Source of the DNA: a virus
Virus record (IMG/VR): IMGVR_UViG_3300028394_000017
Location: 1-34,134 of that record
Length of the DNA: 34,134 bases
Strand: one strand, 5' to 3'
Below, one piece after another: positions 20,449 to 22,428 of this stretch. Every line of letters begins with the position of its first letter. The first letter of the stretch is position 1. The notes under the pieces are model-generated. The model was not told the origin of the DNA. It made no database searches and saw only the letters and a program-made list of their open reading frames with translations. Both the position numbers and the translations under genes were made by a program.

Positions 20449-20547
20449 GATTGTTTGAAACGTGGCTAGGGTAGCTCCCGAAAAGACGATTCTTCACCGT
20501 CCTGCCAATGTTTCTCATGTGAAGATGACCAATGAAGTAAGGTTGTT

Positions 20548-21318
20548 ATGCACTTTTATCAATTTCATATTGGCGACTACAAATCGCATACCCACCACTT
20601 AAATTTGTTTGAGGACTTGGCTTTTCGCCGGTTGCTTGATTACTATTACTTGCATGAAATACCGATAAAACAGCGGGACATTGCTCGCCAGATTGGTATG
20701 CGTGACAACGAACAGGAAGTTCTGAGTGTGCTTAACGAGTTCTTTGTTTCTACCGATGTGGGTTTTATAAACCCCCGTGCTGACGCGGAAATTGTTAAAT
20801 ATCGCAAGTTTTCAGACGATGGGAAAAAAGGGGCGGCAAAGCGGTGGCATAAGGATACCAATGGGGAGGCTAATAGCCCCCCTAATGCCACCCCAATAGC
20901 AACCAATAACCAAGAACCAATAACCAATAACCAATTAAAAACATATATATGTCCACCTGACGGTGAACCTGATTCACCAAAAAAGTTACCAGGCTGCGAC
21001 CACAAGGCAGTCATTGAGCTTTATCACCAGAACCTGCCCACAATGCGTAGGGTAGAAGTTTGGAACGAAACAAGGGCTGGTTACCTGCGACAGCGATGGC
21101 GGGAAGTGGCGGCAGAGCTGGCGCAAGCAAACGACATTGATGCCAATGATGTGCTTAACTGGTGGGGACAGTTTTTCCAATCTGTCAGCAAATCCAGATT
21201 TTTGACTGGCAGGGTCAACGGCAAAGATGGTCGGGCATTTGTTGCCGACTTGGAATGGATTTTAAAACCAAGCAATTTTGCAAAAATCGTGGAGGGAAAA
21301 TATCATGGCAATAACTAA
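20548..21318 (+). CDS. DUF1376 replication initiation-like protein
   Basis: A 256-residue protein. Residues 1-100 are DUF1376 (YdaU type): HFYQFHIGDYKSHTHHLNLF, LLDYYYLHEIPI and a winged-helix-like part ending in DDGKKGAAKRWHK. A low-complexity Asn/Gln/Pro linker (about 105-135) follows, then a C-terminal helical domain with RQRWREVAAEL and NWWGQFFQSVSKSRFLTGR. This layout matches phage O-type replication proteins that bind the origin and recruit host helicase. The linker DNA carries iterated repeats that look like the origin. TAAGG lies before ATG 20548. Confidence 0.78.
   Translation: MHFYQFHIGDYKSHTHHLNLFEDLAFRRLLDYYYLHEIPIKQRDIARQIGMRDNEQEVLSVLNEFFVSTDVGFINPRADAEIVKYRKFSDDGKKGAAKRWHKDTNGEANSPPNATPIATNNQEPITNNQLKTYICPPDGEPDSPKKLPGCDHKAVIELYHQNLPTMRRVEVWNETRAGYLRQRWREVAAELAQANDIDANDVLNWWGQFFQSVSKSRFLTGRVNGKDGRAFVADLEWILKPSNFAKIVEGKYHGNN
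20893..20951. other. Candidate replication origin: iterons plus AT-rich stretch
   Basis: Three perfect copies of AACCAATAAC (20901-20910, 20915-20924, 20922-20931) with degenerate copies at 20893-20900 and 20929-20936, followed at once by an AT-rich run (20934-20951). It lies inside the linker of the DUF1376 gene, as the lambda origin lies inside O. Confidence 0.55.
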
Positions 21319-21505
21319 TTTCACCCAGCAAAAAGATGATTCTTTTGATGAAATTCAGCGTTTAATGTGTTCAGTATACGGCTGCCCAAATCGCTGGTCA
21401 GTTCATTCTGACGGCGATAAACCGAAATGTTCAAAGCACCAATGGCAAAGAATTGAGAAAAAACCTGCTGTCCAAAGTTGGCATGAGGTTGGGGAGGAGT
21501 TTTGA
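21305..21505 (+). CDS. Small zinc-finger-like protein, 66 aa
   Basis: Begins at ATG 21305, overlapping the end of the replication gene by 14 bases, with GGAGGGAAA upstream. The product has a likely zinc site made of C22, C27, C42 and H45 (MCSVYGCPNRWSVHSDGDK followed by CSKHQW). Small proteins of this type are frequent next to phage replication genes. A nucleic-acid-binding role is plausible but not shown. Its TGA stop lies inside the overlapping starts of the methyltransferase locus. Confidence 0.6.
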   Translation: MAITNFTQQKDDSFDEIQRLMCSVYGCPNRWSVHSDGDKPKCSKHQWQRIEKKPAVQSWHEVGEEF

Positions 21506-22428
21506 ATGAGTTGGCTCTTTTCGCAGGCGCTGGTGGAGGAATACTTGGCGGCAAGCTCCTTGGATGGCGAACAGTCTGCGCCGTTGAGTGGGAAGCCTAC
21601 CCCGCAAGCGTACTGTGCGCCCGACAAAATGACGGTCTTCTCCCGACTTTCCCGATTTGGGATGACGTTTGCACCTTTGACGGACATCCTTGGCGAGGAA
21701 TTGTCGATGTTATCAGTGGTGGCTTTCCATGTCAGGACATTAGTGCCGCAGGAAAAGGCGCAGGAATTGATGGAGAACGATCAGGAATGTGGGGAGAAAT
21801 GGCAAGGATCATTTGTGAAGTACGACCCAGATACGTCTTTGTGGAAAACTCACCAATGCTTACTTCTAGGGGACTTGGAAGAGTTCTTGGAGACTTGGCC
21901 TCAATGGGGTTTGATGCGAAATGGGGAGTGCTGGGAGCAGCAGACGTTGGAGCGCCGCATCAGCGGGACAGAATCTGGATTGTCGCCAAATGGTGTAAAC
22001 AGCTTCCACACACCCAACACAACAGGATTAGACGGTGGGAGCAACAGCAGGAAAGCCCTAAAAAAGAAAATGGACTTGTGGCCAACCCCTGTGCATTCGG
22101 AAGCCAGACAGGGCTTGCAGATACGCAGAGAGGGCAAAAAAGGGACGCAGACAAGTCTCAGCACAGCAGTTCTGACCTGGCCAACCCCAAGAGCAGCGGA
22201 CTTCAAGGGAGCAACAAGTGCGGAAGCCATGAGCAAAGCAGCAGCAAGGGGATTCAGTCCGAATTTGCCAGAAGCTACGGCAGCGTCAGTAGGTGGTGGT
22301 CATCTGAACCCAACGTGGGTCGAGTGGCTGATGGGGTGGCCGCTAGGGTGGACAGACTTAAAGCCATTGGGAATGGACAAGTCCCTTTGTGTGCGGCAAC
22401 AGCATGGAGAATCCTAAGTGAATCATGA
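21502..22428 (+). CDS. C5-cytosine DNA methyltransferase
   Basis: A 308-residue frame with all key motifs: motif I LALFAGAGGGILGGKLLGW, motif IV GGFPCQDIS (catalytic C77), motif VI VENSP (114-118; ENS where many have ENV), motif VIII QRDRIW (154-159) and motif X AIGNGQVP (288-295). The region between, about 165-280, is a poor-complexity, short target-recognition part. It would methylate a cytosine in phage DNA against host restriction. The start is TTG 21502 (4 bases after GGAGG) or TTG 21511. Almost the entire gene is also open in the +1 frame as a 303-codon ORF. Confidence 0.85.
   Translation: MNELALFAGAGGGILGGKLLGWRTVCAVEWEAYPASVLCARQNDGLLPTFPIWDDVCTFDGHPWRGIVDVISGGFPCQDISAAGKGAGIDGERSGMWGEMARIICEVRPRYVFVENSPMLTSRGLGRVLGDLASMGFDAKWGVLGAADVGAPHQRDRIWIVAKWCKQLPHTQHNRIRRWEQQQESPKKENGLVANPCAFGSQTGLADTQRGQKRDADKSQHSSSDLANPKSSGLQGSNKCGSHEQSSSKGIQSEFARSYGSVSRWWSSEPNVGRVADGVAARVDRLKAIGNGQVPLCAATAWRILSES
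21506..22417 (+). CDS. Overprinted ORF inside the methyltransferase gene (SWLFS family)
   Basis: A 303-codon frame in +1 relative to the methyltransferase, with the better start of the two: ATG 21506 lies 8 bases after GGAGG. The product begins SWLFSQALVEEYLA and has FSRLSRFGMTFAPLT (45-59), KYDPDTSLWKTHQC (105-118), two WPTP motifs (192-195, 225-228) and a Trp-rich LNPTWVEWLMGWPLGW near 267-282. From memory, this set of motifs recurs in proteins annotated next to or over phage C5 methyltransferases, so the frame is probably expressed. I know no defined function. It may be a partner of, or modulator of, the methyltransferase. Confidence 0.6.
   Translation: MSWLFSQALVEEYLAASSLDGEQSAPLSGKPTPQAYCAPDKMTVFSRLSRFGMTFAPLTDILGEELSMLSVVAFHVRTLVPQEKAQELMENDQECGEKWQGSFVKYDPDTSLWKTHQCLLLGDLEEFLETWPQWGLMRNGECWEQQTLERRISGTESGLSPNGVNSFHTPNTTGLDGGSNSRKALKKKMDLWPTPVHSEARQGLQIRREGKKGTQTSLSTAVLTWPTPRAADFKGATSAEAMSKAAARGFSPNLPEATAASVGGGHLNPTWVEWLMGWPLGWTDLKPLGMDKSLCVRQQHGES

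Follow-up and report, generated by a model that had tools for sequence, protein, structure and literature searches.

A phage C5-cytosine methyltransferase gene overlapped along its length by a second selected frame, probably encoding two subunits of one split enzyme

The C5-cytosine methyltransferase (C5-MTase) gene of the phage analyzed here contains a second frame, in the +1 register, that lies entirely within it and is open well beyond chance. Across the whole gene, each of the two frames is under purifying selection, given the other. We propose, with a probability of about 85%, that frames 1 and 2 each encode one subunit of a single split C5-MTase. In this proposal frame 1 (alpha) would supply the catalytic large domain with motifs I, IV, VI, VIII and X, and frame 2 (beta) would supply part of the small domain, comprising motif IX and a variable region with WPTP modules that is a candidate for the target-recognition domain (TRD). 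The paired starts (of the ATGAATG type, 4 nt apart) and their common Shine-Dalgarno (SD) sequence would lead to co-translation and to similar amounts of both subunits; because the starts nearly coincide, our proposal is that both are made from one ribosome-binding site. We infer that beta is translated and that alpha and beta physically assemble, to produce what would be an orphan MTase marking the phage DNA. Such methylation would act most simply against host restriction, and the enzyme probably guards the phage DNA in this way, as an orphan MTase.

The locus and its two frames

The window, that is, the whole stretch of DNA that was analyzed, is a complete virus record of 34,134 bases. It belongs to a tailed phage, with genes for a portal, a major head protein, an amidase, a terminase, Erf and YqaJ. 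The order from 5' to 3' is a DUF1376 replication gene, a 75-aa ORF and the C5-MTase ORF with the +1 frame inside it; no restriction enzyme gene was recognized adjoining the MTase. The features of the two overlapping frames are as follows.

21493-21497, + strand: Shine-Dalgarno core GGAGG, 8 nt from the frame-2 ATG and 4 nt from the frame-1 TTG
21502-22428, + strand: alpha, the C5-cytosine methyltransferase frame (frame 1), TTG start, 308 aa, with motifs I-VIII and X and without motif IX
21506-22417, + strand: beta, the overprinted +1 frame (frame 2), ATG start, 303 aa
21520-21537, + strand: alpha motif I (FAGAGG), invariant or nearly invariant columns in the alpha alignment
21718-21735, + strand: alpha motif IV with the catalytic Cys (GGFPCQ), invariant columns in the alpha alignment
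21818-21859, + strand: beta conserved block KYDPDTSLWKTHQC, with W113, T115, Q117 and C118 nearly invariant in the beta alignment
21844-21852, + strand: alpha motif VI (ENS), invariant columns in the alpha alignment
21890-21925, + strand: beta conserved block ETWPQWGLMRNG, with P132 and G140 invariant and T130, W134, G135 and M137 nearly so
21961-21984, + strand: alpha motif VIII (QRDRIWIV), mostly invariant columns in the alpha alignment
21980-22291, + strand: beta variable region with WPTP modules, candidate TRD, under purifying selection in frame 2 and exchanged between relatives
21988-22287, + strand: alpha residues 163-262, a linker of low complexity that is neutral in the alpha frame and constrained in frame 2
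22298-22357, + strand: putative beta motif IX (GHLNPTWVEWLMGWPLGWTD), from the canonical motif IX profile and profile-profile comparison
22363-22386, + strand: alpha motif X (AIGNGQVP), conserved in the alpha alignment and found on the frame-2 protein in L017, L030, L034 and L248

Judged by its sequence, frame 1 encodes a genuine C5-MTase. Motifs I, IV (PCQ), VI (EN), VIII and X are all present in order, and the protein matches the PHROG family phrog_363 (E=1.2e-71) and PF00145 (E=3.9e-32), the latter match being confined to residues 4-199, up to motif VIII, with motif X following. Beta matches phrog_1008 (E=1.7e-32). The coordinates, start codons, lengths and motifs given by an earlier, sequence-only reading of this DNA were confirmed, as were its GGAGG spacing and the SWLFSQ, two WPTP and WVEWLMGWPLGW motifs that it had listed for frame 2.

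The ORF just upstream of the MTase (21278-21505, + strand) encodes a CxxxxC...CxxH-like pattern, and its TGA shares bases with the MTase TTG and directly precedes the frame-2 ATG (TTTTGAATG). Three genes (this ORF, the MTase and frame 2) meet here within 7 nt, which suggests translational coupling. An int-alpA RNA (Rfam RF02996; 39.6 bits, gathering threshold 35.8) lies at 20459-20525 on the + strand, immediately 5' of the DUF1376 gene.

Openness, selection and distribution of the second frame

We looked for stops in frame 2 among close relatives, using 80 viral contig loci that were picked by similarity of the MTase (frame 1) alone, which avoids the bias of a search with frame 2; the set includes the window virus itself (L084) and some near-duplicate contigs. 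The +1 frame is without an internal stop in 80/80 of these loci; the +2 frame has 14-29 stops. Permutation of synonymous codons within genes, carried out on 113 non-redundant loci, gave an expectation of 5.7 stops per gene on average and of 2.7 for the lowest locus, and stop-free permutations amounted to about 0.1% overall and 1% for the window gene. Two stops found among the 113 loci are natural ends of frame 2 where frame 1 continues.

Openness and similarity of this kind could be the passive outcome of a conserved MTase sequence and its codon usage, with no gene in frame 2 at all. Some similarity does come free, as the +1 frame of MTases with permuted codons still reaches a median score of 116-117 bits, and for this reason raw +1 homology is not trustworthy at face value. 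The real scores go further: with a profile built from viral sequences only, the +1 frame scored above all 30 synonymous permutations of its own gene in 67/67 prophage MTases, and this result holds separately for the N-terminal part and the remainder of the frame. The same test was passed by 9/9 distant phages, with a profile from a wider frame-2 set that possibly includes L001 and L003, and by 1/17 control C5-MTases without beta (20 against 16 bits). Third bases of fourfold codons in the MTase are 64-75% identical at 50-80% amino acid identity, far above the 34-45% of other ORFs at the same loci when compared at matched divergence. Passive overlap is also at odds with the stops that permuted genes acquire, with about a dozen loci in which frame 1 is broken and frame 2 is intact, and with a middle third that is unconstrained in the MTase frame (see below). 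It is rejected by the synonymous-permutation and substitution tests, and we give it almost no weight.

Substitutions were counted in disjoint close pairs and classed by their effect on each frame. Over the whole gene in the viral set, dNN/dNS for frame 2 is 0.41 (0.37-0.46) and dNN/dSN for frame 1 is 0.31 (0.28-0.35), or 0.36 and 0.32, respectively, if the sequences are aligned by frame 2; an independent prophage set gave 0.51 for frame 2 and 0.37 for frame 1. The constraint differs by region. In the first 160 codons the MTase is strongly constrained (0.14) and frame 2 moderately (0.60). The middle third is neutral in the MTase frame, with a dNN/dSN of 0.96-1.02 (0.91-1.16 for the value of 1.02) and of 1.14 in prophages, and is constrained in frame 2, with a dNN/dNS of 0.24-0.31 and of 0.39 in prophages; this pattern repeats in two data sets and with alignment by either frame. 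At the gene end both frames are constrained. The MTase alone does not explain the substitutions, as the middle third is constrained only in frame 2. The sequence-only reading had claimed that the gene is dual coding over its full length and that both frames are selected, and the permutation and substitution tests strongly support it.

The start of frame 2 is conserved as well. Its ATG is kept in 79/79 viral loci, the prophage starts are 71 ATG and 3 GTG (n=74), and the Asn2 codon of the MTase is AAT in 110/111 cases and never AAC. An SD core lies 4-14 nt 5' of 58% of the frame-2 ATGs (111 loci), against 9% for any ATG. The geometry of the starts varies, since the MTase may start 4 nt before frame 2, or 13 nt before it with GGAG between, or frame 2 may come first; frame 2 retains its own start under each geometry. 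Overlapping AUGUG and GUGUG start sites have been shown to support initiation in E. coli (PMC9841429). Frame 2 might instead be reached mainly through programmed ribosomal frameshifting from the MTase, which would give an alpha-beta fusion and no independent beta. Single-chain and frame-split versions both occur in mycobacteriophages, so frame switching has taken place in evolution, but frame 2 starts at a conserved ATG or GTG of its own, before which SD cores are enriched, and selection acts on its N-terminal 160 codons although a frameshift product would have no need of them. We regard frameshifting as the main route to frame 2 as very improbable.

The statement in the sequence-only reading that SWLFS proteins occur over phage methyltransferases proved to be correct. 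Frame-2 homologues, with 27-72% identity and not confined to direct nucleotide relatives, lie in the same register over phage and prophage MTases in every lineage examined. They were found in 73 phage records, at least 599 viral contig stretches and 80 bacterial-genome loci, and also on a Leptospira plasmid. The hosts of the phages include Acinetobacter, Microcystis, Salmonella, Vibrio, Synechococcus, Paenibacillus, Lacticaseibacillus, Microbacterium and others, and the genome loci come from Pseudomonas, Acinetobacter, Pantoea, Akkermansia, spirochaete bins and more; the arrangement spans many bacterial phyla, in their phages and prophages alike. The register is +1 in 80/80 genome loci and in every overlapping locus examined. 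Because the genome loci were retrieved by frame 2, they are unusable for counting losses of beta. No standalone beta (a copy away from an MTase) was found among the 80 genome loci or at any other locus examined. The 'Mte8-like' gene of L175 was considered as a standalone frame-2 gene and rejected, as an MTase overlaps it in another frame. The window gene is not an isolated overprint of a complete MTase; the arrangement is widespread, frame 2 is the constrained one in the middle third, and naturally split C5-MTases are known (M.EcoHK31I and M.AquI).

Motif IX, the variable region and natural rearrangements

The motif list that had been drawn up for frame 1 (I, IV, VI, VIII and X) was correct, and the missing motif IX appears in frame 2. 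A motif IX profile was made from canonical C5-MTases and a short segment of M.HhaI. At E<1 it matched 56/112 frame-2 proteins, the other 56 falling short of this threshold, together with 0/112 frame-1 proteins and 2/112 shuffled sequences; motif IX profiles had no significant match among the 112 frame-1 proteins. A profile-profile comparison with hhalign related the beta motif to canonical motif IX (probability 86, E 4.8e-6), with LNPTWVEWLMGWPLGWT aligning with RRLTPLECERLQGFPDGWT, and the profile of the frame-2 motif matches motif IX of the canonical MTases L323 and L329. Sequence searches of the PDB gave no significant match to frame 2 or to its profile, nor to the 22-residue profile of the beta motif, which retrieved no C5-MTase. 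Between motifs VIII and X of the alpha chain, where residues 163-262 are neutral, we found neither a motif IX nor a conserved TRD. The evidence from the motif by itself is moderate, and it is the natural rearrangements described below that make the case for assigning motif IX to beta. Frame 2 had been described as having no known role; a role as the motif IX/TRD subunit can now be put forward, as a proposal.

The middle region of frame 2 is only 11-35% identical, and differs in length, between relatives whose flanks are 76-91% identical; in these pairs the N-terminal part is at least 85% and the C-terminal part about 76-90% identical. We consider it a candidate TRD because it is exchanged between relatives with conserved flanks, as TRDs are. 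In single-chain MTases the homologous LPTP region follows motif VIII and precedes motif IX. AlphaFold modeling of beta by itself gave a poor model, with a pLDDT of 49.8 and a pTM of 0.22.

At four loci the product of the frame-2 ORF has motif IX followed by motif X (LKAIGNGQVP) within a single chain, and frame 1 stops after motif VIII and decays beyond it.

L248, 2501-3670: frame-2 ORF with motif X
L017, 2501-3808: frame-2 ORF with motif X
L030, 2501-4006: frame-2 ORF with motif X
L034, 2501-3730: frame-2 ORF with motif X

By their motif order, these four loci would represent a natural step from an M.EcoHK31I-like to an M.AquI-like architecture. The same split, with IX and X on the second polypeptide, is present in at least eight further loci (L282, L287, L289-L291, L293, L295 and L319). 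At 29 loci, mostly from mycobacteriophages, motif IX lies within the chain that has motifs I-VIII. The single-chain protein DillTech15 gp66 matches phrog_363 over its length and phrog_1008 over its C half, and the predicted fold of another single-chain enzyme (L297) matches M.HhaI with an E of 8e-13, its variable region being modeled without confidence. The motifs assigned as IX and X shift between the frames as one enzyme would require.

Seven loci (L189, L195, L202, L217, L253, L063 and L121) have one in-frame stop in frame 1 (TGA, TAG or TAA) and an open frame 2; they could be pseudogenes, cases of recoding or sequencing errors.

The rearrangements also bear on whether frame 2 might be a separate protein, for example a regulator, a chaperone or an anti-defence factor, that was overprinted by chance and acts outside the enzyme. 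The N-terminal half of frame 2 is without a counterpart in known MTases, and some of it is retained in the +1 frame of single-chain MTases, as such a protein might be. Against this, motif IX is in frame 2 and missing from frame 1, motifs IX and X have been joined or exchanged between the frames, the C half of single-chain MTases and frame 2 fall in one PHROG, and every copy examined accompanies an MTase. We find a separate protein unlikely and favor the split enzyme. Within the split enzyme, a pure role as a donor of motif IX explains neither the constraint on the N-terminal half of beta (dNN/dNS 0.60) nor the retention of part of it in single-chain mycobacteriophage MTases.

Over the first 215 MTase codons of L256-L280 and L297 there is a conserved +1 segment (for example EYDPDTRSWKMW...SETWPKTGYMSDGRAYELP), despite the presence of motif IX in the MTase chain. 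This segment of the single-chain mycobacteriophage genes scores above all of its own permutations in 18/18 cases (61 against 23 bits), and it is possible that it is a further small overlapping gene.

We lean towards a wider reading, in which this is a very old and widespread dual-coding gene whose products are obligate partners of one enzyme that share their DNA. The constraint would be split by region, with alpha in the first half, beta in the middle and both at the end. Frame 2 would hold the specificity determinant, swapped as a cassette and neutral in the catalytic frame. Single-chain and M.AquI-like enzymes would have arisen by moves of motifs between the frames, and the overlap would offer phage methyltransferases a way to shuffle domains.

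Significance and comparison with known systems

To our knowledge, DNA genomes rarely contain same-strand overlaps of 900 nt in which selection acts on both frames, and overprinted frames can seldom be assigned a function; the second frame described here is given a testable job. Frame 2 stays hidden where a gene caller accepts only a single gene per stretch, and existing records annotate either frame, or both as 'DNA methyltransferase'. The PHROG family phrog_1008 is misleadingly named 'DNA methyltransferase', its members being frame-2 proteins without catalytic motifs and the C halves of single-chain MTases. If the split-enzyme reading is true, the annotation and cloning of phage C5-MTases would change, as alpha expressed alone would have no activity or the wrong specificity. 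Many naturally split MTases would become available for targeted-methylation tools, and there would be a clean case for how two frames share constraint.

Our search, largely outside subscription journals, found no publication on a phage-wide overlapping-MTase arrangement. Both frames are annotated publicly, in the same +1 register, in Paenibacillus phage Diva (gp49/gp50, 'g49 internal gene') and in E. coli phage K1ind1 (ORF29/ORF28, 'Mte8-like'); these differ from the window in that the beta start lies inside alpha, and neither record gives a function or a selection test or connects beta with motif IX. DillTech15 gp66 resembles the window system in its C half (LPTP modules and motif IX), which is homologous to frame 2, and differs from it in that a single chain, read in one frame, holds every motif.

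M.EcoHK31I (YGGCCR), to which M.EaeI is reportedly similar, has the gene of its small polypeptide inside that of the large one, in another frame, with a beta of about 176 aa. The window likewise has a putative second polypeptide read in another frame within the first gene. The relevant passage of PMC3404938, citing Lee et al. 1995, describes M.EcoHK31I as a two-polypeptide C5-MTase in which motifs I-VIII and X are on the large chain and motif IX is on the small one. The window shares this distribution, with a large subunit that has motifs I-VIII and X and a putative motif IX on the second polypeptide. Unlike M.EcoHK31I, whose predicted TRD is in the large subunit, the system described here has the constraint and the module exchange in frame 2; its beta is about 300 aa, with an overlap from the alpha start, and it is phage-borne, with no adjoining restriction enzyme recognized. 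M.AquI (CYCGRG) is naturally split into an alpha with motifs I-VIII and a beta with motifs IX-X and part of the TRD (PMC3404938). Its motif distribution is that of L017, L030, L034, L248 and L289; the window, as most members do, keeps motif X on alpha, and the two polypeptides of M.AquI, as described, split the variable region and do not overlap over their full length. What is new relative to M.EcoHK31I and M.AquI is the full-length overlap, the candidate TRD in the second frame and the breadth of the arrangement.
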